A program made the translations under genes and the position numbers. A stretch of 20,533 nt of DNA from a virus, in IMG/VR virus record IMGVR_UViG_3300046007_009559, positions 1 through 20,533 of that record. The stretch is one strand, 5' to 3'. Below, piece by piece: positions 2,009 to 15,597 of the stretch (position 1 is its first letter; each line of letters starts with the position of its first letter). Under the pieces are notes generated by a model, which made no database searches, was not told the DNA's origin, and saw nothing but the letters and a program-made list of their open reading frames with translations.

Positions 2009-2037
2009 ATATTAATTGTATTTGACGTTGTTGTCAA
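2009..2037 (-). promoter_or_regulatory. Leftward promoter plus operator-like palindrome for the ATPase unit
   Basis: TTGACA (2032-2037) and TAATAT (2009-2014) are separated by 17 nt on the minus strand. The -35 box begins the palindrome TTGACAACAACGTCAA (2022-2037), and a further GTCAA half-site lies just after the -10 box. The -35 also contains the TGA stop of the gene at 2034-2315. Confidence 0.75.
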
Positions 2038-2315
2038 CTTGATAATCCAACTAATTCTAAAATATAAGTCAATGTATCATATGATACATGGTGTGTAAGA
2101 CAATCCTTTGTTGATGCAGCAATCAGCTCACCATGACTCACCATGTCACAGGTAATGACGATAGTACCCACAGATTTCAATCGTAGCACCAGCACGTTAT
2201 CCTGTGGCTTAAATTGAACCACAACAAGTTGTTTGATATCAAAACTGACTACTGCACCATCTGAATCAGAAAATGCCACAAATTGTTGCTTTGGTTGTTT
2301 GTTATCTTTAGCCAT
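2034..2315 (-). CDS. Hypothetical phage protein, 93 aa
   Basis: No family is recognised. The protein has a Lys/Gln-rich start (MAKDNKQPKQQ), then alternating hydrophobic strands (VVSFDIKQLVVVQF, VLVLRLKSVGTIVITC) that suggest a small beta-rich fold, and a C-terminal amphipathic helix. It starts by a TAATG overlap with the upstream AlpA-like gene, so the two form a two-gene unit. The middle has the same feel as the 71-aa protein at 5598-5813 (beta-strand pattern with a DIK motif), which may be distant kin (weak). Confidence 0.6.
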   Translation of the reverse strand: MAKDNKQPKQQFVAFSDSDGAVVSFDIKQLVVVQFKPQDNVLVLRLKSVGTIVITCDMVSHGELIAASTKDCLTHHVSYDTLTYILELVGLSS

Positions 2316-2527
2316 TACACAACTCCCTTAACTAAGTCATGATGACGTATGTCATCGCGATAATACAATTTAAATACCTTATTTTTTCCACTTTTAAGCT
2401 CTAATGCGCGTGGAAACGCTTTACTTTCAATATGATGGTCTAAATAATTGCATGATTTATTTAGTCGCGCACATATTGCATTCTTGCTGATAAACAGCGA
2501 TTCAAATTCATCTTGGGTCATTTCCAT
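2315..2527 (-). CDS. Small AlpA-like DNA-binding protein
   Basis: 70 aa. Residues about 10-60 (SKNAICARLNKSCNYLDHHI, then AFPRALELKSGKNKVFKLYYRDDI) follow the AlpA/excisionase layout: a winged helix-turn-helix, an FPRA turn, a basic wing and a final RDDI helix. Good GGAG site upstream. It has its own promoter (2546-2574) and is coupled to the following 93-aa gene by TAATG. Likely a small transcription or recombination-directionality regulator (inference). No integrase is visible in the window, so an excisionase role cannot be argued. Confidence 0.55.
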   Translation of the reverse strand: MEMTQDEFESLFISKNAICARLNKSCNYLDHHIESKAFPRALELKSGKNKVFKLYYRDDIRHHDLVKGVV

Positions 2528-2545
2528 TCTCCATATAAAAATGCT

Positions 2546-2574
2546 AGTTTAATTCGTTTTTATGATAACGTCAA
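2546..2574 (-). promoter_or_regulatory. Leftward promoter upstream of the AlpA-like gene
   Basis: TTGACG (2569-2574), 17-nt spacer, TAAACT (2546-2551). The TGA stop of the 56-aa gene (2571-2573) lies within the -35 box. A degenerate copy of the shared palindrome overlaps the -35. Confidence 0.6.
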
Positions 2575-2741
2575 TGTTTTAACAGCTCAATTATTTCAAG
2601 TTCTGCTTCAAGCCAATTCTGCTCTTCATTATCCGAACCTTCAAGCCATTTAAAGTACGCTGCCTTTTCCACAAGTTCACGATACTCATCGTATTTAAGT
2701 AACGCAGGTCTATGACGATATTGATTAGATATTAACTGCAT
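2571..2741 (-). CDS. Small DUF2934-like protein, 56 aa
   Basis: Translated by hand; starts MQLISNQYRHRP and ends IIELLKH. The C-terminal half, EKAAYFKWLEGSDNEEQNW then LEAELEI, matches the DUF2934 pattern (Ala-Tyr-x-x-Trp, Gly, W-x-x-AE), small proteins of unknown function. A GGAG site sits about 7 nt before the ATG. It overlaps the end of the upstream gene by 17 nt and is the last gene of its operon. Confidence 0.65.
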   Translation of the reverse strand: MQLISNQYRHRPALLKYDEYRELVEKAAYFKWLEGSDNEEQNWLEAELEIIELLKH

Positions 2742-3048
2742 TGTGTCTCCCTGCTATAAAGTCTAAATAAAGTGATGTGAAAAATGGATGTTCTTCAACC
2801 TGTAAAATCTTTCTAGGCTTTCTTTTTCTTGGAAATTTATCCAAATATGCTTCAGTTGACACAACAAACGGAAGAATATCTTCGCGTCTAAATAATCTAT
2901 TTCTGTTTGTTTCTAAGATACCCACAGAAGGTACTTTGTGTTTAATTAATCGCCCACGAAGCGTCATTTGTTCAATTCCGAATTCATCTGATGCATCTTG
3001 CATTGTCATTGTGCCAATCGGCTTTGTGCTATATTTAATTTCGTTCAT
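2725..3048 (-). CDS. Small helix-turn-helix protein, 107 aa
   Basis: Residues about 13-60 (TMTMQDASDEFGIEQMTLRG, a RLIKHKVPSVGIL segment, then RLFRREDILPFV) resemble HTH_17/MerR-type helix-turn-helix proteins that end in a R-x-x-D-I wing. A basic stretch (FPRKRKPRK, about 71-79) follows. This makes it the third small AlpA/HTH_17-type protein in the leftmost 3 kb. Its ATG overlaps the stop of the 35-aa membrane peptide by ATGA, and AGGA lies about 8 nt upstream. Role unknown; DNA-binding is inferred. Confidence 0.55.
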   Translation of the reverse strand: MNEIKYSTKPIGTMTMQDASDEFGIEQMTLRGRLIKHKVPSVGILETNRNRLFRREDILPFVVSTEAYLDKFPRKRKPRKILQVEEHPFFTSLYLDFIAGRHNAVNI

Positions 3049-3152
3049 ACATAGAGTCCTGCAAAAAACATTAAAGTTACAATCGGGAATAAAATTGCCA
3101 CAAGCTCTAGCATAATTCTATCCATTATTTTATTTACTTGTTGTTGAGTCAT
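3045..3152 (-). CDS. Single-pass membrane micropeptide, 35 aa
   Basis: Translated by hand: an N-terminal polar helix (MTQQQVNKIMDRIMLE) followed by a hydrophobic segment (LVAILFPIVTLMFFAGLYV) long enough to cross a membrane. Both ends are locked to neighbours by ATGA overlaps (3149-3152 and 3045-3048), strong evidence that it is translated. Function unknown. Confidence 0.65.
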   Translation of the reverse strand: MTQQQVNKIMDRIMLELVAILFPIVTLMFFAGLYV

Positions 3153-3328
3153 TTCATATACCTTTTTAAAATTTCAATTACATCATATATACCTTCACAA
3201 ATCTCACTATCACAATCATAATACTTTGCATCAGATAATAAAATATCGAGTTTTGCAATTGCTTCTTCTTTTTGATTCACCAGTTTAGTTACTATCTCTG
3301 CCCAATCAATATGTTCTTGATTTGTCAT
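3149..3328 (-). CDS. Hypothetical phage protein, 59 aa
   Basis: A longer reading exists (to 3373), but the better start is the internal ATG at 3328. That ATG follows AAGG about 8 nt upstream, just after the stop of the 31-aa peptide. The 59-residue product (starts MTNQEHIDWAEIV, ends IEILKRYMK) is acidic and looks all-helical, with a CDSEIC motif near residues 42-47. No family recognised. Confidence 0.6.
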   Translation of the reverse strand: MTNQEHIDWAEIVTKLVNQKEEAIAKLDILLSDAKYYDCDSEICEGIYDVIEILKRYMK

Positions 3329-3338
3329 GTTTTTAACC

Positions 3339-3434
3339 TTAAAAACTGGATTGCTGTTTAACAATAAACACAATGAGTGAAAAAAGAATTATTGCGCCAA
3401 ATATATAAATCATGGCTTGTTTTAACTCTTTCAT
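3339..3434 (-). CDS. Single-pass membrane micropeptide, 31 aa
   Basis: Translated by hand: a short basic start (MKELKQAM), one transmembrane segment (IYIFGAIILFSLIVFIV) and a short polar tail. Its ATG overlaps the TGA of the 144-aa gene by ATGA. Function unknown; the charge layout suggests a tail-out inner-membrane peptide. Confidence 0.6.
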   Translation of the reverse strand: MKELKQAMIYIFGAIILFSLIVFIVKQQSSF

Positions 3435-3865
3435 TTTGTTTCCCCAATATGGCGGTAACGTACACCATAAGCAAACCCAATGGCTTTATCGCATAATACC
3501 CAAACTTCACTTCCTGTTACACCATAAGTCCATTCAAACTCAACCCAAGGGTCATCCCGTCTTTGCGCAACTTCTGCATATTTCATAATCATTTCAGCGT
3601 GTGGGTGTGGTGTGATGATTGGTTTGGGTCTATCGTATTTTGCTATTTGAAAACAGAATCGCCATGTGTCTTCACCAACCCAATAAAAATTTACTTCTGC
3701 TCTTTCTGCACATTCTGGTGCTTTACCCCAATCAACATTAACTTGCACACCTGTTTGCTTTTCGTTCCATTCATTTAAATATTCTTGAAAACCTTCGTTG
3801 CCATCCCACCATTCATCATGTAACAATGTTAATTCTTCAATTTGTTCGTTTGTTAACAAACTCAT
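3431..3865 (-). CDS. Hypothetical phage protein, 144 aa
   Basis: Acidic, Trp-rich protein (for example HDEWWDGNEGFQEYLNEWNE near residues 16-35, and DPWVEFEWTYG near 105). No family or catalytic motif is recognised. A GGAG site stands before the ATG. It is followed by a coupled membrane micropeptide and preceded one base away by the 68-aa gene, inside the 4512-2571 operon. Such Trp- and acid-rich phage early proteins are sometimes host-targeting inhibitors, but nothing in the sequence proves that. Confidence 0.65.
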   Translation of the reverse strand: MSLLTNEQIEELTLLHDEWWDGNEGFQEYLNEWNEKQTGVQVNVDWGKAPECAERAEVNFYWVGEDTWRFCFQIAKYDRPKPIITPHPHAEMIMKYAEVAQRRDDPWVEFEWTYGVTGSEVWVLCDKAIGFAYGVRYRHIGETK

Positions 3866-3866
3866 A

Positions 3867-4073
3867 TTAATCTCCAGTATAATTATTTAGTTTTTCTTGA
3901 CGGATAAAATCAAGTTCGTGTTCGGTAATGTGGTATTCATATTTACCACCTCTCCATGATACTTCTGCTTTACCAGCTTTTGTGGCTTGTGTAAAAGATG
4001 AAAAGATACCAACAACATAACTGTGAGATTCCCTATCTCCCCATCTTAATGCTTCTACTATAAAGAAACTCAT
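3867..4073 (-). CDS. Conserved-looking small phage protein, 68 aa
   Basis: The sequence contains GDRESHSYVVGIFSSFTQA (about residues 12-30), then RGGKYEYHITEHELD. This matches a type of small phage protein in which a YVVGvFs strand and a RGGKYE motif recur (a domain of unknown function). A GGGAG site precedes the ATG, which overlaps the upstream stop by ATGA. Function unknown. Confidence 0.65.
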   Translation of the reverse strand: MSFFIVEALRWGDRESHSYVVGIFSSFTQATKAGKAEVSWRGGKYEYHITEHELDFIRQEKLNNYTGD

Positions 4074-4261
4074 TTCACTCCCCCAAACATCACATCAATA
4101 TTTTTATCATCGCAAGCCATATTTCTAAATCGTGCATTATTTTGCCCAATAAACTGAGCTGAAAACAACTCATCAAATCGCTCATTGGTCTCACGCAACA
4201 CATCTGTTTCTTTTTTAGCCTGAAGCAACTTCAATGTTTCTTCAAATGTTCTTTTTTTCAT
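4070..4261 (-). CDS. Hypothetical phage protein, 63 aa
   Basis: A charged, helical N-terminal half (MKKRTFEETLKLLQAKKETD) with heptad-like leucines, then a polar C-terminal half with no recognised motif. ATGA overlaps join it to both neighbours (4258-4261 and 4070-4073), which supports translation. Confidence 0.6.
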   Translation of the reverse strand: MKKRTFEETLKLLQAKKETDVLRETNERFDELFSAQFIGQNNARFRNMACDDKNIDVMFGGVK

Positions 4262-4512
4262 CTCTTTTTAACCTCATAGGGTAAATAACTTTCTTCTTGA
4301 TAATCTGGTATCTGTATTTCTTCATCGTCATCAAGTTCAATACCAGATAACCATGATTTCACATAGCCAATAACTAAATCACCAAAGTTATCTTCTCTCA
4401 CACCCTGTGAATTTTCAACCTCAATAATATACACATCTTGGTCATAGCTAATACCAACAGTCAATAGGCATTGATACTTTGAGCCAATCCATGCAAACTC
4501 TTGTAAATACAT
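4258..4512 (-). CDS. Hypothetical acidic phage protein, 84 aa
   Basis: The start is set at 4512 rather than 4530 because a full GGAGGT (4517-4522 read on the minus strand) lies 4 nt before this ATG. The protein begins MYLQEFAWIGSKYQ, has beta-like stretches (CLLTVGISYDQDVYIIEVEN) and a strongly acidic patch (IELDDDEEIQIPDYQEES) near its end. It is the first gene of its operon, directly after the promoter at 4533-4562. No family recognised. Confidence 0.65.
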   Translation of the reverse strand: MYLQEFAWIGSKYQCLLTVGISYDQDVYIIEVENSQGVREDNFGDLVIGYVKSWLSGIELDDDEEIQIPDYQEESYLPYEVKKR

Positions 4513-4532
4513 AATTACCTCCGTTGGCAAGC

Positions 4533-4562
4533 ATAATACTCTTTGTTTGATAAGAACGTCAA
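4533..4562 (-). promoter_or_regulatory. Leftward promoter with operator-like palindrome
   Basis: TTGACG (4557-4562), 18-nt spacer, TATTAT (4533-4538). The -35 box is part of TTGACGTTCTTATCAA (4547-4562), a member of the shared 16-bp palindrome family. Confidence 0.75.
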
Positions 4563-4572
4563 ACTTTATTTT

Positions 4573-4607
4573 AAAAAATAGCCGAAAATATCTCTATCAA
4601 CGGCTAT
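4573..4607 (-). terminator. Rho-independent terminator ending the large small-gene operon
   Basis: On the minus strand ATAGCCG and CGGCTAT (4601-4607 and 4578-4584) form a 7-bp stem, followed directly by a run of T (4573-4578). It lies just after the stop codon at 4616, which marks the end of the 8821-4616 operon. The next promoter lies just beyond it. Confidence 0.75.
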
Positions 4608-4615
4608 GTTATTGA

Positions 4616-4789
4616 TTACTCTTCAAATTTTATTAACTGAAACAATTCATTGTTACGCATTGTGATACCACCAATATTAGTATCGTAGACCCGATAATAG
4701 CCTTTATAATGGTAGTATTCTATTGTTCCCACAGTTAAAGAACCAATGAGAACACCAATTGAGAATGAGATTAAACAGAATTTAAACAT
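4616..4789 (-). CDS. Single-pass membrane protein, 57 aa
   Basis: The start is placed at 4789, where the ATG overlaps the upstream TAA stop (TAATG). This gives MFKFCLISFSIGVLIGSLTV, a signal-anchor-like membrane segment at residues 1-22, then a Tyr-rich stretch (EYYHYKGYYRVYD) and a polar tail. The longer reading to 4822 would only add a polar extension. It is the last gene of the operon. Function unknown; an inner-membrane location is likely. Confidence 0.6.
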   Translation of the reverse strand: MFKFCLISFSIGVLIGSLTVGTIEYYHYKGYYRVYDTNIGGITMRNNELFQLIKFEE

Positions 4790-4989
4790 TAGTTGATGCT
4801 CCCATATTTCCCCGACACACAATATGCTGAAACCAGCTCAGTTTTGTACTTAGAGAGCTTGTAATCGCTATAGGCGTGTTCTAGTTCAAGTTTTGCATTA
4901 TCACACGCGGTAGGTGATTCAAACTGTATTGATACCGTGTTCATTTGTGAGACTACACTCACATAGATTGTAAAGATTAATGTGGTCAT
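4789..4989 (-). CDS. Small exported or membrane-anchored protein with two Cys, 66 aa
   Basis: An N-terminal hydrophobic stretch (MTTLIFTIYVSVVSQ) looks like a weak signal or anchor. Two cysteines follow (about residues 29 and 57, in SPTACDNAK and SAYCVSG) and could form a disulfide in the periplasm. The NTVSIQFESPTACDNA pattern is familiar from small phage proteins of unknown function. It is coupled on both sides by TAATG overlaps. Confidence 0.65.
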   Translation of the reverse strand: MTTLIFTIYVSVVSQMNTVSIQFESPTACDNAKLELEHAYSDYKLSKYKTELVSAYCVSGKYGSIN

Positions 4990-5465
4990 TATTTCTCTCC
5001 ATAAATTTTAGAATAATTTACATGACCATTCCAGTCCGCAGCTTCAATCAAAGATGGCATAAAGTATTTATTTGGCTCGTCTTTTGTGGTCGGATAAAAT
5101 ATACCATTAACTTTCTCAAAATGTACAGACTTTTCGTATTCTGTACAATTATCAATAAAATCAATAATCGCATCTACATCGTAATTTTCATTAAATAATA
5201 AATGACAATCACCAATCCGATAACACAAGTCTCGCAGTTCACGAGTGACCATCGCTTCTCTGCAATCAAGTCCAGAATAAAGCAGTATCTCAATAAACTC
5301 TAAATAATCACAGTCATTCATAATGATATCAGCAATACACATTAAATCACGCTGTAATTGCTTCTCACGAGCTAAACGTAACTTTTTGATGATAGTGCCT
5401 GCTCGTTCAATTTCTATTAGATCAGAAGGTTCTTGTGGGTATAGAGCTGTTTGTAATTTGTCCAT
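4989..5465 (-). CDS. Hypothetical phage protein, 158 aa
   Basis: A helical N-terminal half (ERAGTIIKKLRLAREKQLQR near residues 19-38) is followed by an acidic, Cys-containing middle (CIADIIMNDCDYLEF, GLDCREAM, LCYRIGDCHLLF). Five to six Cys are spread through it but without a zinc-finger spacing. No family recognised. A strong GGAGG, placed inside the end of the upstream 46-aa gene, serves its ATG, and the genes overlap by TAATG. Confidence 0.6.
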   Translation of the reverse strand: MDKLQTALYPQEPSDLIEIERAGTIIKKLRLAREKQLQRDLMCIADIIMNDCDYLEFIEILLYSGLDCREAMVTRELRDLCYRIGDCHLLFNENYDVDAIIDFIDNCTEYEKSVHFEKVNGIFYPTTKDEPNKYFMPSLIEAADWNGHVNYSKIYGEK

Positions 5466-5605
5466 TAATCCTCCAAAAAATCAGAAATCTTATCGCTAAA
5501 AAACTCAATGAACATCCCTAATGCAATTAGGGTTTCAGAGGTTATTGATAAGCAGATGTAAAGCAATATCACGGGTATTTTTAATGCAGTGATTAACTTA
5601 TTCAT
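5465..5605 (-). CDS. Small membrane peptide, 46 aa
   Basis: Translated by hand: MNKLITALKIPVILLYICLS, then a second hydrophobic stretch (ETLIALGMFIEFF) and an acidic tail ending DFLED. Its ATG follows GGAG; its stop overlaps the next gene by TAATG, and its tail codons contain the next gene's GGAGG. A short inverted repeat (CCCTAAT/ATTAGGG, 5516-5532) lies inside the coding sequence. Function unknown. Confidence 0.6.
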   Translation of the reverse strand: MNKLITALKIPVILLYICLSITSETLIALGMFIEFFSDKISDFLED

Positions 5606-5813
5606 CTCCAGTCCAGTATTTTATTAATTCATCAAAGTCTTCAGGCAATATCTGATTCACAGAATGCTCATATATGCCGAAATCAATTCGTTTGCCTGAT
5701 ATCATATAGAAACGAATCACTTTGTGCTTGATATCAAAGCTCATATATTCGACATTTGCGTTATTTATAACAATAACTTCATTATTTTGTAATCTAATGC
5801 TTGAATGGCTCAT
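5598..5813 (-). CDS. Hypothetical phage protein, 71 aa
   Basis: Alternating hydrophobic strands (NEVIVINNANVEYMSFDIKH, KVIRFYMISGKRIDFGIYE) suggest a small beta-sheet protein, with an acidic C-terminal helix (EDFDELIKYW). No family recognised. GGAG precedes the ATG; the start is coupled by ATGA to the 50-aa gene. Confidence 0.6.
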   Translation of the reverse strand: MSHSSIRLQNNEVIVINNANVEYMSFDIKHKVIRFYMISGKRIDFGIYEHSVNQILPEDFDELIKYWTGDE

Positions 5814-5962
5814 TTGTTTTTCTCCAAAACTATATCAGTTAAATCATCAATTATTTTAATCAGCTCATCAGTGTGATGGTCTGGTACGTTAGATTGCATA
5901 AAAACGTACATCTCTAAGCCGGAAAGCAACTTTAGGATGCGGAGTGCTTGTTCTTTATTCAT
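5810..5962 (-). CDS. Hypothetical helical protein, 50 aa
   Basis: Translated by hand: starts MNKEQALRILKLLSGLEMYV and ends DIVLEKNK. It looks all-helical, with a central HHTDELIKIIDDLTD segment. A GGAG-like site precedes the ATG, it overlaps the upstream gene by 8 nt and ends by ATGA on the next gene. No family recognised. Confidence 0.55.
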   Translation of the reverse strand: MNKEQALRILKLLSGLEMYVFMQSNVPDHHTDELIKIIDDLTDIVLEKNK

Positions 5963-6272
5963 TTTCTACTCCTATTTTGTGCGAGATTTCAGCAAAAATA
6001 ATGCCTTCTTCAAATGCTTTTTGTTCAGATTTAGTGCCGTATGCTTTTGAAATTCTTTCTCTAAACTCGGGGTTAAAAGGCTCGCGCTTTAAATCATCCT
6101 TGGCTTTTGCATAGCCCCGCTGATACATCTCACGTGCCGTTTGTGCTGGCTCACGTTTTTGTGGTGCTAGGTCTAGTTCAGCTTGTATATCCCAGTACAA
6201 ATCATAATGAGTTTCTTTTAATTCGCGCAGTGTATCTCGCACTCTTTTTAACAACTCTCTTTCTTTATTCAT
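5955..6272 (-). CDS. Hypothetical phage protein, 105 aa
   Basis: A highly charged helical protein: MNKERELLKRVRDTLRELKE, a Gln/Ala/Arg middle (KREPAQTAREMYQRGYAKAK, about residues 39-58) and a C-terminal EQKAFEEGIIFAEISHKIG helix. The repeated A-x-x-x-Y/F-x-x-G helices (REMYQRGYAKA, QKAFEEGIIFA) suggest a two-helix repeat. No enzyme motif. AGGA lies upstream, with 8-nt overlap with the preceding gene. Confidence 0.6.
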   Translation of the reverse strand: MNKERELLKRVRDTLRELKETHYDLYWDIQAELDLAPQKREPAQTAREMYQRGYAKAKDDLKREPFNPEFRERISKAYGTKSEQKAFEEGIIFAEISHKIGVENE

Positions 6273-6444
6273 CTCTCAATCCTTTTAAATAATAATGGGC
6301 ATCCATATACAAATCATTTTCTTCTGATAGTGGTCTACCCATTGACCAAGCAAATAAAACTCTTTCAAGCAGCGCAACAAGTCCATTACGTTGAGCGATC
6401 ACTTTATCTAATTCTTGTTCATATAAATAGGATTCAAGGCTCAT
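6265..6444 (-). CDS. MSLESYLY-family small protein, copy A, 59 aa
   Basis: Translated by hand: begins MSLESYLYEQELDKVIAQRN. The first residues and their codons match the 51-aa gene at 6773-6928 (MSLESYLYQNYIDELV), and the LY-E-x-x-I/L-x-K-x-I-x-QRN stretch also recurs in the 57-aa protein at 6441-6614. The three look like tandem paralogues. Good AGGA site; 8-nt overlap with the next gene. Function unknown. Confidence 0.6.
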   Translation of the reverse strand: MSLESYLYEQELDKVIAQRNGLVALLERVLFAWSMGRPLSEENDLYMDAHYYLKGLRDE

Positions 6445-6614
6445 AACTCATCCTCATACTTTTCTAAAACTTCATCAGCATCTTCGATTCTCGAATAACA
6501 CAAATTGTAATCATCATTGTAATAGGCATTACAGATACCTCTTAAAACTGTAATCAGTTCATTGCGCTGACCAATAAGTTTGCCTATTTCTTCTTCGTAT
6601 AAATCATTTACCAT
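6441..6614 (-). CDS. MSLESYLY-related small protein, copy B, 57 aa
   Basis: Translated by hand: begins MVNDLYEEEIGKLIGQRNEL and ends LEKYEDEL. The LYEEEIGKLIGQRN segment aligns with LYEQELDKVIAQRN in the neighbouring copy A. Two Cys (ICNAYY, LCYSR) lie in the middle. AGGAG precedes the ATG. It joins copy A by an ATGA overlap. Function unknown. Confidence 0.55.
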   Translation of the reverse strand: MVNDLYEEEIGKLIGQRNELITVLRGICNAYYNDDYNLCYSRIEDADEVLEKYEDEL

Positions 6615-6769
6615 CGGATTGCTCCTATTCTTTTTAGTACCGCATGGACTTTATAAGGGCGTTCTTTTCTAAATATATGCGTCATAGTCATATCTCTAGT
6701 AAACATCGCGTATTTAAAACTTCGCCATTTTACATCGTAGCGATTGAATCCTCTTTGGCGTACTCTCAT
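6608..6769 (-). CDS. Small basic protein, 53 aa
   Basis: Translated by hand: begins MRVRQRGFNRYDVKWRSFKY and ends VLKRIGAIRW. It is very rich in Arg and Lys, which fits nucleic acid binding, though no fold is recognised. A clear GAGG site sits before the ATG, and its stop overlaps the start region of copy B by 7 nt. The alternative, that this is only a spacer frame, is less likely given the ribosome binding site and tight packing. Confidence 0.5.
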   Translation of the reverse strand: MRVRQRGFNRYDVKWRSFKYAMFTRDMTMTHIFRKERPYKVHAVLKRIGAIRW

Positions 6770-6772
6770 AAC

Positions 6773-6928
6773 TCATCCTCTATCTTTAGGTAGCATTTGT
6801 CGTGCTTTATCGTAAATTTGTTTAGATTCCTCTATTGACTCACCAGCTTGCCACGAATCCAAGACTTCTTCAAAGATATTCACCAACTCGTCAATATAAT
6901 TCTGATATAAATATGATTCAAGACTCAT
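6773..6928 (-). CDS. MSLESYLY-family small protein, copy C, 51 aa
   Basis: The start is set at 6928, because the protein then begins MSLESYLYQNYIDELVNIFE, the same N-terminus as copy A, and the ATG overlaps the upstream membrane peptide's stop (ATGA). The longer frame to 6979 reads through that membrane peptide's region. The protein is acidic and helical, ending ARQMLPKDRG. Function unknown. Confidence 0.55.
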   Translation of the reverse strand: MSLESYLYQNYIDELVNIFEEVLDSWQAGESIEESKQIYDKARQMLPKDRG

Positions 6929-7020
6929 AGCACCCACCAATCCTCTGAAATAAATAAGTAAACACAAATTGCAAACCAAATAACTATCACAGTCACCATA
7001 CCCAGTATAAAATCACCCAC
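6925..7020 (-). CDS. Single-pass membrane micropeptide, 31 aa (GTG start)
   Basis: Read from a GTG at 7020, the product has the core FILGMVTVIVIWFAICVYLF and ends EDWWVL. A GGAG lies 7 nt before this GTG, within the preceding Cys-peptide gene. An ATG start at 6999 would give 24 residues but has a poor site. The stop overlaps the next ATG by ATGA. Function unknown. Confidence 0.5.
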   Translation of the reverse strand: MGDFILGMVTVIVIWFAICVYLFISEDWWVL

Positions 7021-7063
7021 ACTTGCTATCTCCGCAGTTAGTACACGTCATGTAGTTATTCAT
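7013..7063 (-). CDS. Cys-rich micropeptide, 16 aa (CxNCGDSKC)
   Basis: The peptide is MNNYMTCTNCGDSKCG. Its ATG overlaps the TAA stop of the 110-aa gene (TAATG), the coupling seen throughout this operon. The C-x-N-C-G-D-S-K-C core recurs at 7968-8036 with mostly synonymous codon differences, which argues for translation. Three Cys close together suggest metal binding (inference). Confidence 0.5.
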   Translation of the reverse strand: MNNYMTCTNCGDSKCG

Positions 7064-7395
7064 TAGTATCTGCCCACTCTATAAGTACCGCATTTTTTCT
7101 CATAAATCTTATCGAAGATAGGTCTATAAACTAACATTTGACCATCTTTAACTTCTCTAACAATCTTTTTTGGTATATTCATCCAAAAACCATCTCGTAA
7201 TATTGAATAGCAATTAATTCTTTCAATAATTCTATCGAACCTAGCCCAAAAATCATAGTAAGAATGGTCTGTTTCAAATACAGGTCTATTTGCTCGCATA
7301 GCTTTAAATTCAGCACTATGGTTTTTATGATAACCAACATGGAGATAATCATCAGAATTGTCGTTGTTACCATAACATTCATAACTGTAGTCCAT
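7063..7395 (-). CDS. Hypothetical phage protein, 110 aa
   Basis: Tyr/Asp/Asn-rich start (MDYSYECYGNNDNSDDYLHV), then FWARFDRIIERINCYSILRD and a basic, Tyr-containing C-terminus. No family recognised. Two reading frames are open here; this one is preferred because it has GGTGAG upstream, starts just after the preceding stop and ends by TAATG on the next gene. Confidence 0.55.
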   Translation of the reverse strand: MDYSYECYGNNDNSDDYLHVGYHKNHSAEFKAMRANRPVFETDHSYYDFWARFDRIIERINCYSILRDGFWMNIPKKIVREVKDGQMLVYRPIFDKIYEKKCGTYRVGRY

Positions 7396-7401
7396 AATAA
7401 C

Positions 7402-7786: not shown

Positions 7787-7796
7787 AGCTCGACCT

Positions 7797-8464: not shown

Positions 8465-8821
8465 TTATTGTGGGAAAATACGGGTATCCCAGAACCCATC
8501 GATATCTGACATCACAAGGTCAGGTACGGTATATTCTTTGCCGTACTTGTCAATGTGTTCCACAATTGACCAGTAAATGTTATAAGGAATCTGTTCATTT
8601 GAGATGTTTACTTCAAAAGATTCATCCTCGGAGATTGAGTAGAACTCAATATTTAAATCATCAGTGTTGGTTTCTGATTCATCCGCATGGTCAAAAGTAG
8701 CTGGAATACTGACGTGATACTCCGACCATGATGCATTAACACACGCGATGCAATCGCCTTGTGCATTGTTGATATAAAATTCGTGGCTATAATCTTTTTG
8801 TGTAACATTATTTTTTAACAT
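8465..8821 (-). CDS. Hypothetical acidic phage protein, 118 aa
   Basis: Rich in Asp, Glu and Asn (for example HADESETNTDDLNIEFYSIS near residues 45-64), with two Cys in GDCIACVNASW. No family recognised. It is the first gene of the longest small-gene operon, directly behind the promoter at 8855-8883, with GGAGAG before the ATG. A first-position acidic early protein could be a host-takeover factor or DNA mimic; that is only a guess. Confidence 0.6.
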   Translation of the reverse strand: MLKNNVTQKDYSHEFYINNAQGDCIACVNASWSEYHVSIPATFDHADESETNTDDLNIEFYSISEDESFEVNISNEQIPYNIYWSIVEHIDKYGKEYTVPDLVMSDIDGFWDTRIFPQ

Positions 8822-8854
8822 TTTTGCTCTCCAGTAAAATAATTAAGTTGACGT

Positions 8855-8883
8855 ATATTAATTGTGTTTGACAACAAAGTCAA
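8855..8883 (-). promoter_or_regulatory. Leftward promoter with operator-like palindrome for the long operon
   Basis: TTGACT (8878-8883), 17-nt spacer, TAATAT (8855-8860). The 16-bp palindrome TTGACTTTGTTGTCAA occupies 8868-8883, and a GTCAA half-site follows the -10. Its architecture is almost the same as the promoter at 2009-2037. Confidence 0.75.
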
Positions 8884-8885: not shown

Positions 8886-9308
8886 TTATTTATCACAAAT
8901 GTAGAAGAAGTACGAATTATTTGTTCTGTCTTCTTCATAAGGTTCACAAGACCCTGTATCATAGACCCATGCATCTCCACGAGAATTGAGGTTACCTGCC
9001 CAGTACACAGTGCTATCTGCTAGGAATCTGTTATCATTGCAATTATATAACATGGTGATTTCTTCAATTAACGGTAAACGCCATCCTTGCGCTTTTTGTG
9101 CTACAGTTAGCTTTTGCTCTGCTGTATCATAATTGCCAAATTGCATTGATGGTGACACATGAAATGGTAAATCCATTATGTCTGTGATTAATGTTGACTT
9201 AATAGTCAACTGTTGACGCAAAGCATTCATAAATAATATCGCTTCTTCGCGTGATATATCTTGAGCTGCGTCCCAAGAGTAGGTTTCTTTTCTGATTATT
9301 TGTGTCAT
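8886..9308 (-). CDS. DUF1566-like (Lcl C-terminal type) protein, 140 aa
   Basis: The C-terminal half has the DUF1566 signature: AQGWRLPLIEEITMLYN (about residues 73-89), then VYWAGNLNSRGDAWVYDTG and a final SYFFYICDK strand. This order (GWRLPT-x-E-E, W-x-G/S, x-A-W, final strand) marks small lectin-like/formylglycine-enzyme-like folds with mostly unknown function. The usual extracellular signal is missing, so it is probably cytoplasmic. It is a one-gene unit with its own promoter (9336-9364). A GTTGAC-N6-GTCAAC palindrome (9193-9210) lies inside it. Confidence 0.6.
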   Translation of the reverse strand: MTQIIRKETYSWDAAQDISREEAILFMNALRQQLTIKSTLITDIMDLPFHVSPSMQFGNYDTAEQKLTVAQKAQGWRLPLIEEITMLYNCNDNRFLADSTVYWAGNLNSRGDAWVYDTGSCEPYEEDRTNNSYFFYICDK

Positions 9309-9335: not shown

Positions 9336-9364
9336 AATATGCTCATTCTGAGCGAAATTGTCAA
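9336..9364 (-). promoter_or_regulatory. Leftward promoter for the DUF1566-like gene
   Basis: TTGACA (9359-9364), 17-nt spacer, CATATT (9336-9341). Its spacer contains a different palindrome, GCTCA-TTC-TGAGC (9341-9353). The TGA stop of the gene at 9361 lies inside the -35 box. Confidence 0.6.
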
Positions 9365-9600: not shown

Positions 9601-9765
9601 TTAATACGCCCACTCAGGGCGATAGTTTGATTGTGGTTCTTCTTGCAAGGCAAGGTATTCTTTGTATAAGTCAGACAGTCTGACTCCTTCATATGCCCAG
9701 CCTTGAATTTGTTCTAAGGTCATGGTGCTTACAAATTCTTCATAAGTCCATATTTCGTTTGCCAT
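9601..9765 (-). CDS. Hypothetical phage protein, 54 aa
   Basis: Translated by hand: begins MANEIWTYEEFVSTMTLEQI and ends YRPEWAY. Aromatic-rich and acidic, probably helical. GGAG stands 7 nt before this ATG; an ATG 5 nt earlier is in another frame. It is the first gene after a near-consensus promoter (9799-9826). No family recognised. Confidence 0.6.
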   Translation of the reverse strand: MANEIWTYEEFVSTMTLEQIQGWAYEGVRLSDLYKEYLALQEEPQSNYRPEWAY

Positions 9766-9798
9766 CTCATTTCTCCGTAATTCATTTAAGTTGACGCT

Positions 9799-9826
9799 AT
9801 TATAATCTTTTTTGCGTTATTGTCAA
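9799..9826 (-). promoter_or_regulatory. Strong leftward promoter with operator-like site
   Basis: TTGACA (9821-9826), 16-nt spacer, perfect TATAAT (9799-9804). The -35 and spacer (TTGACAATAACGCAA) match the shared palindrome with one base missing, and CGTCAA follows the -10. The spacer is nearly identical to the rightward promoter at 15570-15597. Confidence 0.75.
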
Positions 9827-9846
9827 AAATACTTAATACCTGAATA

Positions 9847-9895
9847 CACAAAATCCCTTCAAACACAGGTACGACAAGGTCTGGAGGGATTTGTG
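9847..9895 (-). terminator. Hairpin after the replication operon
   Basis: CACAAAATCCCT (9847-9858) and AGGGATTTGTG (9885-9895) form an 11-bp stem with one bulged base and a 26-nt loop. A short T-run lies some 20 nt further left. It lies between the last gene of the replication unit (stop at 9928) and the next promoter, so it probably ends that transcript; the large loop is unusual. Confidence 0.5.
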
Positions 9896-9927
9896 GGCTT
9901 GCGCAGGGAGTGCGGGTTTTATTCTAT

Positions 9928-10269: not shown

Positions 10270-10285
10270 CTTCATCACTCCTAAA

Positions 10286-12799
10286 TTAAAAACAAACAAG
10301 GTAGGCTACACCAGAAAACATCTTAGTCTTGCCCACAGGTGGTACGATATGTTTCTCAAGGCGTATGGCTTCATTAAAGGGTATTAAATCACCCGTTTCA
10401 ACCATCTCTTTGAGTATCACATTGAGTGTTGCGGTATTGCTCATGTGTCCGATACGATAAGTATCGTTATTGAGCTTCTTCGCGAGTAAACTCTTAGGTA
10501 CAACACCGTTATCGAGTAAGTATGCCCATTCTTTTGAAACCTTATCACGAGGTTCATTCGGGTCAATTAATCGTTTGATTAATGTTGTGGTGCGTTTTTT
10601 ACAGTTGTTTTCACCAATACCAATGGTGCCTTCTTTAATACGTTTGATTAAATTAAAGCAATCACGAAGCACGAGAGCTTTTGCCCATTCAAAATCCTCC
10701 AATGTTATCTCAGGCTTATAGCGATTACGAGTCACAGCAAAAAGCGAAGCAATGGTCATGACTTTTAAGTACGCTCTCGCAAATGGCTGTCTCTGCATCT
10801 CATCAATGCCTTGATTGAATCTCATGTTGATATACACTTCCAGATTAAGCATAGCGAGTTCAACTTGTTTATTAGCAGGTACAACCTGCTCAACGTGTTC
10901 TTGTTCATGATTTAATTTGGCTTGGATAACGAGGTCACACAAATCAGTCACAATGTTCTGGTCAAGTTGGGTCAAGTGCGCACACTTATCCGACATCCCT
11001 TTGTGCGTTGAATATCGCTCAATTAAAACAAATCGAGAGATAAAACCACTCTTAGCCATTGATTCTGTAATTCCTTCATAGTAATCAAGTGTGCAATCAC
11101 CAATAAGACTTATCGCAGCTCCAGTCACACCTGTGCGGTTATTTGCAGTATCCGCATGACGACTACCTCCGTAGGTTGATTTAGGTGCTGATTTACTGTG
11201 AGCATCGAGTAACTCGTTATATAAGCCCGACATAGCGGCATCATTTTTATTCTTTAATGCATCTACAAGTCTTGCGAATTCAGGCATCACAACAAGTATT
11301 GAATGGTAAGGTGATGATGTGATAACCGATTTGAATGCTTGCCCTGATGATAATCTATCAAAACATACGAATTCATCACCATTAACTTTAGCAATCGCAT
11401 TTACAATCACACCAAGTGAGCGTGAAACGCTTTCTTTGCCAAGACCTGACGCTGCGAGGATAACAAAATAATTATTAAGACCTGCGCCATTGAAGTTCCA
11501 TTGACGACCACAGATACCTGATATCAATGCTAGTGATGCACCAATCGCGGCTTCTTTAAGTTTATAGGGTGATGCATTGTAAATGTATTTTGAAATATCC
11601 CCGATTAAACCATGTGGGAAGGGGATGTCCGTTTTAAATAAATCCTCTTCAGCAAAAAACTCAAGTTCGTCAGCATCAAAATCATATTTTAAATCATCCA
11701 CATCCATGTTGTTTTCAATAGCTGCATCACGTTTACTTTTAGCGTAATCAAGTTCTGCGGTAATTCTGTCATTAGTCGTCTTAAAATAGCTATCAATAAT
11801 GCTATCAAATAATTCGGTCATGCTCGTTAAATCAAGTTCATCACGAATCTTAATTAAGCATCTATCAATACGGTAATTGGTACCTTGATGCTTTGCTCTC
11901 TGTCCCACAGGTGTTGTGCGAAATATTCTTCTAACTTGTGAGTCAGAGGGGGTTGCCCGACCTAAAATACAGATTAAGGCTAAGTCTACTTCGGATAAAG
12001 ATGGATAATTAAAACTTACTAAATCCGTGCTTTCAGTAATGAGACTCAGTTCGAGATACTTATCACACCAAGGTGAATCGAGAATCCAATCAATTACTCC
12101 ATCGTCAGTGAGGTCTGATTCAACTTCTTTTAACACAAAGTCAAATTCAGGGTCAGCCTGTAAGCCAAGTTTATCGACTAATGCAAGTAATGCTTCATTG
12201 CGATATTCAATTCGCTTTGCGAATTTTTCAATCTCGGATACCCGTAAGTCGGTATCATTTATTTTCTCAAATGTGCGCTCAATGCTGTAATCCATTGTGC
12301 CATCAGGCAATGCCTTTGCCACAGGTGTGACGATATTACCTGTGACTACGATGAATCGTCTGAAGGAATAGGCTTCTATTTTGTATTTAGATGACCTACG
12401 AGAAATAAATTCATCAGTTTTAAAGATGATGTGATATCCCATTCCATACGTTGAAAGTTCAGTGTAGGAATCAAATTTACTAATGATTTCATGCATCATC
12501 TCGATGGATTCTTTAGTTGTGAAATCTTTAATATCTAAATCAATTACACCAAAGTGATGGTCAGTATTCATCACAGCACCAATATCATATCCATGTGCAT
12601 CAGCAAATGAAAATGCCACACTAAAAGGCATGAGATGAGACTTTATGTTGATATTACATTTAACAAGTTTATCTTGATTAGTTAAGGTATGAGGGATTTT
12701 ACCTCCTATATTACCATCTACATCAGCAGCAATTAACCAGATATTTTCTCTCTTTAATTCATCGGGTATTAAATTATAATTGCGAATTCTATTTTCCAT
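10286..12799 (-). CDS. Replication protein: prim-pol domain fused to DUF3987 helicase-like ATPase
   Basis: The 837-aa protein has two parts. Residues about 1-165 are a primase-polymerase (AEP) domain: the metal-binding pair in VIDLDI (Asp87, Asp89), the STYGMGYH nucleotide-binding motif (116-123) and RFIVVTG (148-154). Residues about 390-750 look like DUF3987: PFPHGLIGDISKYIYNAS, a P-loop AASGLGKES near 450, and VVMPEFARLV near 500. Such fusions prime and unwind DNA for phage or plasmid replication. Between the two lies a helical linker. It is expressed leftward, 1.3 kb from the GGTACC repeat field that may be its origin. AAGGA precedes the ATG. No DNA polymerase gene is seen in the window. 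Confidence 0.85.
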   Translation of the reverse strand: MENRIRNYNLIPDELKRENIWLIAADVDGNIGGKIPHTLTNQDKLVKCNINIKSHLMPFSVAFSFADAHGYDIGAVMNTDHHFGVIDLDIKDFTTKESIEMMHEIISKFDSYTELSTYGMGYHIIFKTDEFISRRSSKYKIEAYSFRRFIVVTGNIVTPVAKALPDGTMDYSIERTFEKINDTDLRVSEIEKFAKRIEYRNEALLALVDKLGLQADPEFDFVLKEVESDLTDDGVIDWILDSPWCDKYLELSLITESTDLVSFNYPSLSEVDLALICILGRATPSDSQVRRIFRTTPVGQRAKHQGTNYRIDRCLIKIRDELDLTSMTELFDSIIDSYFKTTNDRITAELDYAKSKRDAAIENNMDVDDLKYDFDADELEFFAEEDLFKTDIPFPHGLIGDISKYIYNASPYKLKEAAIGASLALISGICGRQWNFNGAGLNNYFVILAASGLGKESVSRSLGVIVNAIAKVNGDEFVCFDRLSSGQAFKSVITSSPYHSILVVMPEFARLVDALKNKNDAAMSGLYNELLDAHSKSAPKSTYGGSRHADTANNRTGVTGAAISLIGDCTLDYYEGITESMAKSGFISRFVLIERYSTHKGMSDKCAHLTQLDQNIVTDLCDLVIQAKLNHEQEHVEQVVPANKQVELAMLNLEVYINMRFNQGIDEMQRQPFARAYLKVMTIASLFAVTRNRYKPEITLEDFEWAKALVLRDCFNLIKRIKEGTIGIGENNCKKRTTTLIKRLIDPNEPRDKVSKEWAYLLDNGVVPKSLLAKKLNNDTYRIGHMSNTATLNVILKEMVETGDLIPFNEAIRLEKHIVPPVGKTKMFSGVAYLVCF

Positions 12800-12810
12800 T
12801 TTTTAAATCC

Positions 12811-13674
12811 TTATATTGTTGTAAAAGTATAACCTTCTGCTTTATACATAAATAAAGCACTATAAGCTGTTTGTAATGCGACTCTTAGACACATTTGAGG
12901 TGAAGAAATATCAATTTTGCCATTAACGGCTGTATATTTAGGTATTGTGGCTAATATTTCGTTTAGTTCAGAAAGTGTATATGACCACATGGAGTGGTTT
13001 ATTTGTTCATTTGATATACCCATCTTTGTGAAACGGAGGGATAAATATCGACTTAATGCCATGCCATTAATAGGCATAAATAGTTCTATAAGTCGTTGGT
13101 CAGAAATGTAGGTGGATAAAAGCTCGGTTAATTCAAGTGAGTAATCAGCCACATGAGCGTTGAGTTTAGCTCTGAGTTCAAGTAACTCGGAATCAGAGTA
13201 TTTAGATTTTAAGTCAAGTTCAGGTATTGCATTAAATGCGATGTAATTATGACCACAGATTTTGATGATAGCTGTGTCAAGAGATAGTTCTTTATATTTT
13301 AAGATTTTATCTGATATTTTTGGTGTATTTGAAATTTCAACAGAAAGGGGTGTAGAAGGCTCGGAAATTTCTTCCCCTTGTGGTTGTATAGGTTCGGACA
13401 TAAGAATTGATTCTACCTCTGCTGGAGAAAGTTTATTGAGTATTTCTGTGACTGCTTCAAGGACTTTATCAGACACATTCTTGATGTCATTAAGTTGATT
13501 CACGACCACATTGTTGGAGATGATATCCATAGATTCATATTTCTCATAACCAATTTGAATTAACCATTCAAAGGTTTTGACTTTGGTTTCTGTGGGCAAT
13601 AGTGCGTGTAAGCTATCAAACTTATCCACAATATCTTGAGTTGTGCTGAATTTTAATTGGGTTTTAGTTGACAT
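12811..13674 (-). CDS. Unknown 287-aa protein with possible ribbon-helix-helix N-terminus
   Basis: The first 45 residues (a strand TQLKFSTT, a helix DIVDKFDSLHALL, then a helix KTFEWLIQIGYEKY) fit a ribbon-helix-helix DNA-binding fold. Residues about 55-125 are a polar, Glu/Pro/Ser-rich linker (SEPIQPQGEEISEPSTPLSV), and the C-terminal 150 residues look helical. A DNA-binding head joined to a helical body beside the prim-pol gene fits an origin-binding or initiator accessory protein (inference). AAGGA precedes the start; the preceding stop is 2 nt away. Confidence 0.55.
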   Translation of the reverse strand: MSTKTQLKFSTTQDIVDKFDSLHALLPTETKVKTFEWLIQIGYEKYESMDIISNNVVVNQLNDIKNVSDKVLEAVTEILNKLSPAEVESILMSEPIQPQGEEISEPSTPLSVEISNTPKISDKILKYKELSLDTAIIKICGHNYIAFNAIPELDLKSKYSDSELLELRAKLNAHVADYSLELTELLSTYISDQRLIELFMPINGMALSRYLSLRFTKMGISNEQINHSMWSYTLSELNEILATIPKYTAVNGKIDISSPQMCLRVALQTAYSALFMYKAEGYTFTTI

Positions 13675-13676
13675 AA

Positions 13677-13862
13677 TTAGTCCTTACGTTTTGAATTGTT
13701 AGCTTTTATACATTCCGACATACAGATGTCTAATATCTCAATTGGTTCTTTGTTCATTAGAATGCACAGTCTTAGGAAGTTGAAAGCGAGTCTATAGCTC
13801 ACATCAATATCAAGGCTTTGCGCTCCTGTGTCTGGAGTAAATGATAGTTTTATAGTATTCAT
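13677..13862 (-). CDS. Hypothetical phage protein, 61 aa
   Basis: Begins MNTIKLSFTPDTGAQSLDID, then a helical LAFNFLRLCILMNKEPIEIL segment and a basic end (NNSKRKD). No family recognised. GAGGT precedes the ATG, which follows the upstream stop with no gap. Middle gene of a three-gene lead-in to the prim-pol gene. Confidence 0.6.
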   Translation of the reverse strand: MNTIKLSFTPDTGAQSLDIDVSYRLAFNFLRLCILMNKEPIEILDICMSECIKANNSKRKD

Positions 13863-14078
13863 TTATTTGACCTCTTTAACTTTAAATTGTTTTTCTTCCA
13901 CAGAGTATTCCAGTTTCACAGTTGGGTGAGATAATAAATCGTGGAGTAGATTGATGGATTGCTCACACATTTTTGTGTGATTGGTAATCCCTGCAAAAAA
14001 TTTATTTGATATTTCTGTGATTTTTATGCATGAATCAGATGATAATCTGACCATGTGACGCTTAGTTTCTGTAGACAT
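13863..14078 (-). CDS. Small ribbon-helix-helix-like protein, 71 aa
   Basis: Strand (KRHMVRLSSD), helix (CIKITEISNKFFAG), helix (CEQSINLLHDLLSH) fits a ribbon-helix-helix repressor plan, with a charged C-terminal strand. It is the first gene of the replication operon, next to its promoter (14106-14134), the place where an autoregulator usually sits. It and the 287-aa protein are the nearest candidates to bind the GGTACC palindromes. Function inferred only. Confidence 0.55.
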   Translation of the reverse strand: MSTETKRHMVRLSSDSCIKITEISNKFFAGITNHTKMCEQSINLLHDLLSHPTVKLEYSVEEKQFKVKEVK

Positions 14079-14105
14079 GATAGTTCCCGAAGTAAGTAAA
14101 ATATT

Positions 14106-14134
14106 AGGTTAGCATATTTATCAACATTAGTCAA
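14106..14134 (-). promoter_or_regulatory. Leftward promoter of the replication operon
   Basis: TTGACT (14129-14134), 17-nt spacer, TAACCT (14106-14111). Upstream lies TCAAC-TCAT-GTTGA, an inverted repeat near the -35. The -10 contains the TAACCT motif that recurs in other non-coding segments. Confidence 0.6.
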
Positions 14135-14206
14135 CATGAGTTGATTTTGATGTTGTTGTAAAAAAATTTATTTTTTTTATGTTATTCCTAGAGGGGGAAA
14201 GTTAAG

Positions 14207-14619
14207 TTGGTACCAACTTGGTACCAAGAAATGTCTTTGGTACCAACTTGGTACCACACTCAAAGCCAGTAAATATAAGGGTTTGACCTTGGTACCAAGG
14301 TAGTGATTTGTTGGTACCAACTAGGATTTTGACAATAAAATAAAAAAGGTATAAATTTATAAACTTAAAAATATATATATTATAATAAAGCTTTTTTTCT
14401 TCTTAAAAATCAATAACTTACATAACATCAGCATCCAATATACAAAATCGGCTTTTTTGGCACTTTTTCGACTTTTTGACAACAAAATAACCACACAACT
14501 TAGTCGGTTATTCAAAATTCTTGGTACCAACATTTTTTTTATGGTTATTATTTGAAAACAAGAATCCAGCAATGATGCGGGTTTGAGGGTTGGTACCAAA
14601 TAGGTACCATTGGTACCAA
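14207..14619. repeat. GGTACC palindrome field (iterons), likely replication origin
   Basis: Ten GGTACC palindromes, mostly inside TTGGTACCAA, start at 14209, 14220, 14239, 14250, 14291, 14313, 14523, 14592, 14603 and 14612. Two pairs have 11-bp spacing and are themselves 30 bp apart; another pair is also 11 bp apart. This regular, one-turn spacing suggests cooperative protein binding on one DNA face. Beside the repeats lies an AT-rich tract (14335-14391). Repeats plus an unwinding region upstream of the replication genes fit an origin; an operator cluster is the alternative. Confidence 0.65.
14335..14391. other. AT-rich tract, candidate DNA unwinding element
   Basis: A nearly pure A/T stretch, including ATATATATATTATAATAA, lies within the GGTACC field between its left and right clusters. 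Such tracts melt easily and are typical of origins. No gene is supported here. Confidence 0.5.
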
Positions 14620-14739
14620 TAAAGTTTTTAGGGTTATTATTTGATGGTTTTTTGGATGTGAGTTTTGCCAAACGGACTTCAAAATCCAATTTGTGCAAAA
14701 TAATTTTATGGGCTAGTGGGATAATGTGAAAAAGGGGTC

Positions 14740-15180
14740 ATAATTTTGATTTTAAGGTGTGCTGAAGGCACGAGGAGGGATTGGGTGCTACATTGGTATT
14801 ACTTGTGACACAAAAGACCACTGTGGGTCAATTCTGAGAGGATTTTGGATTGGCTGTTGATTTTACCCTGTGACCTGATGTGTCACAAGGAGGAGCTGCG
14901 AGACCGTTCCTGAGCTGCGGGAGCTGAGGAAGACAAGAAGGAGCGGCACCCTGTGTCACCTGTGGCTAAAAATACGCCTTCCAGTTTTGTGGGATGAAGT
15001 TCAAAATTGAATTGACCATGAAAAATTTTACAGGCTAACGAGCTTTTTGTGAAATCATACCCCAAATTTGAATTCTAAGGGGTCTAGGAGGCGATTTAAG
15101 ACCTGAGGTGTGGTCATAGTATTCCTCATGAGCCAAGCGAGCCTCAGAGGTCAAATTTGAGCATATTGGTCTCAGAGTAA
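14740..15180. other. GC-richer structured non-coding island
   Basis: No convincing gene. The stretch is clearly less AT-rich than its surroundings and packed with inverted repeats: GTGC/GCAC (14759-14771), CTTGTGACACA (14802-14812) with TGTGTCACAAG (14879-14889), TTCCT-G-AGCT / AGCT-G-AGGAA (14907-14931), and a stem pairing 15100-15108 with 15142-15152. It may be a structured RNA, a recombination or packaging site, or acquired DNA. The strand is undecided. Confidence 0.45.
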
Positions 15181-15545
15181 AAAAATAGGGTAAATACCAC
15201 TTGAAAAGTAGTGGATTTATACCATTTTGAAACTAAGGTTATTCTAACCTATTGTTTTATATAGGATTATCTAACCTTATAAAGTGTAAGGTTTTATAAG
15301 TGATTGAATTCTATAGCGGTTTATAGTCGATTGAATTGACTGGTAGGCTTATCAAGTAACAATGCTGCAGAACCTGTTTACTTGATAGATGTAAAATTAT
15401 CATTTTATTAAAGAGCAATTTTTCGCTATATATAGTGAAAAATTAAATACTGGTATAGTTTACCGCATAAAAGGCGCAATATGTGACGCGCGTCATTTTG
15501 TCGCGCTGATTATAAACTATTGTTTTTATTCAAAATGTTATTTAT
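15181..15545. promoter_or_regulatory. Non-coding control segment with several palindromes
   Basis: Four kinds of inverted repeat precede the rightward genes: AGGTTA-TTC-TAACCT (15236-15250) and AACCTTA-N7-TAAGGTT (15273-15293); TATCAAGTAA / TTACTTGATA (15350-15387); a 28-bp near-perfect palindrome (15417-15444); and TGACGCGCGTCA (15484-15495), GC-rich in AT-rich DNA. These look like protein-binding sites for controlling the rightward promoter. No gene is seen. Confidence 0.45.
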
Positions 15546-15547
15546 TT

Positions 15548-15597
15548 TTGACGATAACATCAAAATAGTTTGATAAGAACGCAAAAAAGATTAAAAT
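15548..15597 (+). promoter_or_regulatory. Rightward promoter with tandem operator-like sites
   Basis: TTGATA (15570-15575), 16-nt spacer, TAAAAT (15592-15597). The shared palindrome appears twice: TTGACGATAACATCAA (15548-15563) and, over the -35, TTGATAAGAACGCAA. The spacer matches the leftward promoter at 9799-9826 almost base for base. It would drive the 15643-16759 genes. Confidence 0.7.

Follow-up and report, generated by a model that had tools for sequence, protein, structure and literature searches.

A near-palindromic 16-bp site family at promoters facing both ways and at a putative replication origin in a phage group

A near-palindromic site recurs in noncoding DNA

The window analyzed here is the entire IMG/VR record IMGVR_UViG_3300046007_009559, a linear stretch of 20,533 bases from a phage. 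It holds about a dozen copies of one near-palindromic 16-bp site (roughly TTGAYRANAAMGYMAA, on either strand), which by sequence form a real operator-like site family of a phage group. The sites lie over likely promoters facing both ways and in a putative replication origin, and they are concentrated in the replication-side and origin DNA. On balance, they are probably the operators of one phage-encoded early repressor, Cro-like in effect, that may act also at the origin. Genes are called early or late from gene content, not expression data. Since the record consists of the 20.5-kb window alone, the remainder of the phage genome was approached through contigs of relatives, in which the main blocks show 88 to 98% DNA identity and some early segments only 70 to 78%.

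The strict palindrome TTGAYN6RTCAA matched five times in the window, compared with a mean of 0.23 and a maximum of 2 in 100 dinucleotide shuffles. Four of the five are intergenic; the other (9194-9209) lies within open reading frame (ORF) 8886-9308 and is palindromic in G001, G004, and G006 too (two of which differ by one base) and unmatched in G003. A weight matrix was built from 12 distinct sites, 6 of them window sites, and the scores of these six are circular because the sites trained the matrix. At a score of at least 10, the matrix matched 15 times in the window (15548 counted on both strands), whereas 60 shuffles averaged 1.9 such matches and never exceeded 5. Held-out matches scoring at least 14 were found at 2559, 14147, 14329, 14476, and 16874 in noncoding DNA and at 8538 in coding DNA, a noncoding share of 5/6 (binomial, 8e-4). 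By the gene list of this analysis, 17% of the window is noncoding. RTCAA stood at the N6 spacing after TTGAY in 8/46 noncoding cases versus 2/140 coding cases (Fisher P = 0.0003; P = 0.013 with each palindrome counted once). The right half is thus enriched given the left, and a −35 box alone is therefore no explanation. In an unbiased search, TTGAC-N6-GTCAA was the top dyad outside the origin, with a P of ~2e-5 that is uncorrected for ~13,000 possible dyads, so this evidence would be weak if taken alone.

The four 16-mers of the original prediction were all confirmed in position, at 2022-2037, 4547-4562, and 8868-8883 on the minus strand and at 15548-15563 on the plus strand. Two further sites that it described as one base short are better read as 16-mers with right-half substitutions, at 9811-9826 (minus) and 15570-15585 (plus), because where the window has TTGACAATAACGCAAA and TTGATAAGAACGCAAA, relatives carry TTGACAAGAACGTAAA and TTGATAAGAAAGCAAA, respectively. 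Its list omitted the sites at 877, 2559, 14147, 14329, 14476, and 16874. The sites are not equally dense inside genes but are enriched in noncoding DNA, and relatives keep them at orthologous promoters.

Sites overlie the −35 boxes of likely promoters on both strands

A −10-like hexamer (at least 4/6 bases) followed 9/12 sites at a distance of 16 to 18 bp, compared with 31/170 other TTGAY words in the window (binomial, 3e-5). This sigma-70 geometry, with −35 and −10 hexamers 16 to 18 bp apart, is seen at sites on both strands and bears out the earlier claim that the sites sit over −35 boxes in both directions. Seven sites are counted here as marking likely promoters: 877, 2022, 2559, 4547, 8868, 9811, and 15570. 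Among those facing left, TTGACAACAACGTCAA (2022-2037) covers the −35 of a promoter with a 17-bp spacer and the −10 TAATAT (2009-2014), before the Sak4-like ORF 1128-1970. The plus-strand operator TTTATGATAACGTCAA (2559-2574; held-out matrix score, 15.8) is inverted relative to its leftward promoter (−35 TTGACG, spacer 17, −10 TAAACT), which precedes ORF 2315-2527. TTGACGTTCTTATCAA (4547-4562; spacer 18, TATTAT) stands before ORF 4258-4512, TTGACTTTGTTGTCAA (8868-8883; spacer 17, TAATAT) before ORF 8465-8821, and the 9811 operator (spacer 16, TATAAT) before the small ORF 9601-9765, each over a leftward −35. A weaker minus-strand operator, TTGACAGAAATGTAAA (877-892; matrix score, 9.5), lies over the −35 before ORF 101-796; its counterpart in several relatives, TTGACAGAAACGTAAA, scores 15.0.

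The 15570 operator covers the −35 of a rightward promoter (spacer 16, TAAAAT) before ORFs 15643-15771 and 15784-16470. Upstream of it is the operator TTGACGATAACATCAA (15548-15563), whose own −10 falls inside the 15570 operator. Behind these rightward operators, the window carries a DUF7227 gene (15784-16470; E = 4e-53), but L032 has a GP88-family gene there (4641-5429; E = 2e-37). Also on the plus strand, TTGACAACAAAGCAAA (16874-16889; held-out score, 22.3) lies upstream of the terminase small subunit ORF 17035-17535 with a weak −10, and this site is present in L026, L029, L032, and L062. The predicted half-sites past the −10 were found right after it at three leftward promoters and one rightward promoter: CGTCAA at 1998-2003, 8848-8853, and 9791-9796 for the 2022, 8868, and 9811 promoters, and CGTTAA at 15599-15604 for the 15570 promoter.

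The site was scarce elsewhere in the relatives. L058 and L059 (38 kb together, covering structural genes plus a portion of the replication operon) had one match scoring at least 14, inside a long open frame; L027 (15 kb) had one, within a helicase frame; and L028 (20 kb) had none. Putative late promoters carry TTGACA without the remainder of the site at 16975 (score, 6.1), at 20254 (by eye), and at L058:12960 (score, 12.0).

In-place changes preserve the symmetry of the site

Among relatives, the 2022 16-mer is identical in 11/13 distinct contigs, the 2559 16-mer is unaltered in 15/15 aligned rows (13 distinct contigs), and the 4547 16-mer is identical in 9/11 distinct contigs. At 15570, 15/16 columns are invariant among four aligned sequences, versus 153/254 gap-free columns upstream. 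Noncoding DNA of L032 has six matches scoring at least 14, versus 0.06 in shuffles, and five of these lie outside DNA alignable to the window. Where the 4547 site differs, in L007 and L011, it reads TTGACGACAACGTAAA, with 5/6 central bases and 2/10 arm bases changed.

At 8868, L005 and L009 share the window core TTTGTT, while within near-identical flanks L006 has TTGACAACAACGTCAA and L010 and L019 have TTGACAACAACATCAA; the core is AACAAC in these three and likewise in L062. Between the window and L006, 6/6 central bases differ and 0/10 arm bases differ. In reverse complement, the window core reads AACAAA, and that of L006 is AACAAC, so the core is nearly inverted with the arms kept. An inversion of this kind is compatible with a symmetric binding site and incompatible with a directional promoter element, and it favors a protein with two-fold symmetry over a promoter consensus.

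These changes bear on the explanation that the site is a mere extended early-promoter consensus (TTGACA plus an A-rich spacer) copied around the region, with no dedicated protein. Its left arm is indeed the −35 box, and the promoter pairs 2022/8868 and 9811/15570 are alike beyond the operator, through the −10 and start region, so their likeness could partly reflect promoter duplication. In L011 and L017, moreover, the 2022 operator is the 15-mer TTGACAACAAGTCAA, one base shorter, with the promoter spacer still at 17; the spacing of the promoter thus seems to be under tighter constraint there than that of the operator. The enrichment of the right half given TTGAY, the swapped 8868 core with intact arms, the origin copies without a clear promoter described below, and the putative late TTGACA promoters lacking the rest of the site all argue the other way, and we consider a bare promoter consensus unlikely.

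A copy is retained at exchanged putative origins

The site set is wider than promoters, since copies are also found within the putative origin, and this extension is the most interesting part of the site family. In the putative origin (14207-14619), eight TTGGTACCAA iterons flank an AT-rich tract on either side (~14346-14395, by eye); all eight are in noncoding DNA (14079-15642), with none elsewhere in the window. The plus-strand operator TTGACAATAAAATAAA (14329-14344; held-out score, 19.6) lies between the iteron array and the AT-rich tract, and its −10 is doubtful. The operator-like TTGACAACAAAATAAC (14476-14491, plus strand; held-out score, 14.9) lies on the opposite side of the tract, and the operator-like TTTACAACAACATCAA (14147-14162, minus strand; held-out score, 16.1) lies upstream of the leftward operon of replication genes (ORF 13863-14078), both without a convincing −10. 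Among relatives, the 14147 site was seen in L005 and L006 alone, which share this cassette.

Three relatives have other iterons at the origin place: five copies of GTGTTAACAC in L032 (3150-3255), ten of GTGTCACA types in L062 (6580-6690), and ten of TGTATCCAT in L026 (3318-3520). TTGGTACCAA, GTGTTAACAC, and TGTATCCAT were each found in their own cassette only, and the GTGTCACA pattern had two or three background copies in the other three. These origin-exchanged relatives have terminase small subunits 96% identical to that of the window, and the large subunit is 100% identical where the contig reaches it (L032 and L062). Their primases, in contrast, are 47% (L032), 45% (L062), and 36% (L026) identical to that of the window, and a neighboring protein of ~290 amino acids (aa) is 20 to 30% identical. 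By eye, the N terminus of this neighbor is ribbon-helix-helix-like. In 4/4 origin types, nevertheless, a matrix match lies between the iterons and the AT-rich tract (tract assigned by eye), at 14329 in the window, 3264 in L032, 6552 in L062, and 3299 in L026. The L032 origin site reads TTGATTTATTGTCAA (N5) where L062 has TTGATAAGAACGCAAA, and its flank matches on the AT-rich side only.

This placement would suit another role for the protein, either as an activator or as a replication factor that binds the origin, with early promoters marked incidentally. However, the sites have a center near −28, which overlaps the polymerase footprint and is not known for class I or II activators; most sites lie over promoter-like sequence; and the iteron-side proteins vary from cassette to cassette, unlike the site. 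We regard this explanation as very unlikely.

A separate observation concerns 14641-15220, a long noncoding stretch with inverted repeats that is 87.5% identical in L032 despite the exchanged neighboring cassette.

Proposed repression of early promoters and action at the origin

We propose that the sites are bound by one dimeric or pairwise-binding phage-encoded protein. Once bound, this protein would cover the −35 hexamer together with the first ten spacer bases, and host sigma-70 RNA polymerase would thereby be blocked at early promoters facing both ways, so that early genes would be switched off as infection proceeds. Repression is the simplest reading because the protein would occupy the −35 and the upstream spacer. 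Through the further copy beside the AT-rich tract, the same protein may act on origin transcription or opening. With one site family over early promoters and the likely replication start, one candidate protein probably controls them all together. The original prediction of one protein for both directions thus stands as the best explanation, given shared sites on both strands and symmetry-keeping changes, and its label of phage repressor is plausible; a role in lysogeny has no support.

Several observations weigh against such a repressor. Matches occur in coding DNA (8538 and 9194), and six window sites served to train the matrix. The right half is poor in the sites at 9811, 15570, 16874, and 14329, which are palindromic only in part, and 15548 is poorly conserved, with 10/16 columns invariant among four aligned sequences, no better than its surroundings. 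Of the three matches scoring at least 14 in each of L062 and L026, just one per contig lies in the exchanged part; two of the L026 matches had been training sites. No −10 follows 14147, 14476, or 16874 at a spacing of 16 to 18 bp, and none was clear by eye at the L026 and L032 origin sites. The similarity of the promoter pairs beyond the operator and the shortened operator in L011 and L017 count on the same side, as does the failure to find a CI/Cro-type gene in the 13 partial records searched.

A more specific version is that a small winged-helix-turn-helix (winged-HTH) protein shuts early promoters and gates the origin, with the operator kept while the origin cassette (iterons, iteron-side proteins, and primase) is swapped between four or more types, in phages that have near-identical terminase genes and no CI-type repressor. 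We consider this version possible but less likely than not. If the model is true, a single operator couples early transcription to replication in a phage group so far without signs of lysogeny genes, and the natural site swaps (inverted cores and exchanged origins) open it to direct tests. The exchanged iterons, with their partner proteins, would likewise supply natural pairs for reading DNA recognition by such proteins.

Candidate regulators in a conserved block

The operator survives replication-cassette exchange, so the protein is probably encoded outside the cassette, whether by the host or, for example, in the conserved block 1-3323. Three small minus-strand ORFs in this block (889-1131, 2315-2527, and 2725-3048) are winged-HTH-like by eye; Protein Data Bank sequence searches with three HTH-like ORFs gave nothing useful, and neither did NCBIfam. 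The leading candidate is ORF 2725-3048 (107 aa), given its HTH-like character and near invariance, with 93 to 100% identity in 12 relative loci. The window protein resembles HTH_17 (E = 0.078), and 1/13 records matched this family (G002, at the orthologous place; E = 1.7e-4, below the curated cutoff); the agreement of coordinates indicates that the G002 match is the ortholog of ORF 2725-3048. It had no tblastn match at an E of 1 among annotated phages, and its AlphaFold2 model was uninformative (pLDDT, 40). ORF 2315-2527 (70 aa) is the first gene behind the 2559 operator. Its low-confidence model (pLDDT, 55.8) has three helices and then a beta hairpin, as in winged-HTH proteins, and it had no HTH family match. 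ORF 889-1131 (80 aa), AlpA-like by eye only, is 84 to 100% identical in relatives and had no Pfam match. The replication-cassette ORFs 13863-14078 and 12811-13674 were rejected as the main regulator; they differ or are absent where operators persist.

The repressor gene that the original prediction suggested seeking elsewhere was not found as a CI/Cro-type gene: 0/13 records matched HTH_3 (PF01381) at an E of 1, all being fragments in which the family could also be diverged. This result, together with the resemblance of the promoters to host sigma-70 promoters, would fit a host transcription factor that binds the sites, with early genes and the origin read or blocked according to host state. 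The distribution of the site points away from the host. In a reference-genome scan, operator plus −10 gave 44 stretches in unrelated taxa with no clear host-genus cluster (the loci themselves were not read); one Saccharibacteria isolate had two stretches (L201 and L205), and Vibrio hepatarius was represented by two strains (L208 and L215). Among the listed viral loci with an exact 16-mer (at least 118), 9 are DNA relatives of the window phage, and these account for 5/5 loci with at least four matrix matches and 3/5 with three. The listed unrelated loci comprise 17 with two matches scoring at least 14 and two (L135 and L150) with three, in apparently coding contexts (by eye), and the rest with one. 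Known host boxes also fit poorly. CRP and FNR boxes have the form TGTGA-N6-TCACA or TTGAT-N4-ATCAA, and no exact one occurs in the window; the integration host factor (IHF) consensus, WATCAANNNNTTR, has eight window matches that overlap 0/12 sites, and it overlaps 1/3 relative origin sites (L032). A host factor is therefore improbable as the binding protein.

Comparison with known systems

Lambda-type CI/Cro operators are short symmetric sites over early promoters facing both ways, in two triplets. The window sites are likewise symmetric and overlap promoters of presumed early genes. They differ in number and layout, with ~12 sites over one genome side and the origin rather than two triplets, and the 13 partial records yielded neither a CI/Cro-type gene nor a tyrosine integrase (PF00589, 0/13; all fragments, with serine integrases not searched).

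Mycobacteriophage L5-type repressors bind many copies of one site across the phage genome, promoters included, and these stoperators are 13 bp, asymmetric, monomer bound, and nonfunctional when reversed (PMC9283540). In contrast, the window site is near-palindromic and appears in both orientations at one promoter between relatives (8868 and 4547). TgrL of phage phiCbK, an XRE-type early regulator, is reported to act mostly as a repressor (92/99 direct targets; PMC10688885); it was studied there on host targets, whereas the sites here are on the phage genome, with no HTH_3 match.

The nearest annotated phages are distant (large terminase subunit [TerL], 56% to Seuratvirus and others; primase, ~28%), and megablast with the window found no match in an annotated set that may omit records very near it. 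Queuovirinae phages Seurat and 9g are among the best TerL relatives (56%), with primase at 28% and a gene order partly similar by eye. They do not share the site: Seurat has no matrix match scoring at least 14 in 20.8 kb (0.20 expected) and 9g has one in 50 kb (0.35 expected). In G007, a distant relative (63 kb; TerL, 57%), the sites were absent and no dyad was clearly prominent. Such an operator is undescribed in the accessible text of two Queuovirinae papers (PMC8594841 and PMC6266253) and in the literature searched, with subscription papers mostly outside its scope.

Other genes and repeats

The window genes are phage genes of single-stranded DNA (ssDNA)-binding, Sak4, primase, and terminase types. 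Besides the Sak4-like and terminase ORFs given above, they include a DUF669-like/ssDNA-binding ORF (101-796) and a primase (10286-12799; phrog_3022, E = 6e-115). In the relatives, the helicase gene encodes 938 aa in L027 (1897-4713) and 589 aa in L028 (16314-18083), and the extra part of the L027 helicase is intein-like by eye.

A second inverted repeat lies upstream of two leftward genes and reads GCTC..GAGC (9341-9354) and GCCC..GGGC (9607-9621) in the window. At the first place, relatives carry GCCC..GGGC, both arms being altered together, as would suit a hairpin or another operator. Recombination is possible at this repeat, because the upstream DNA differs too.

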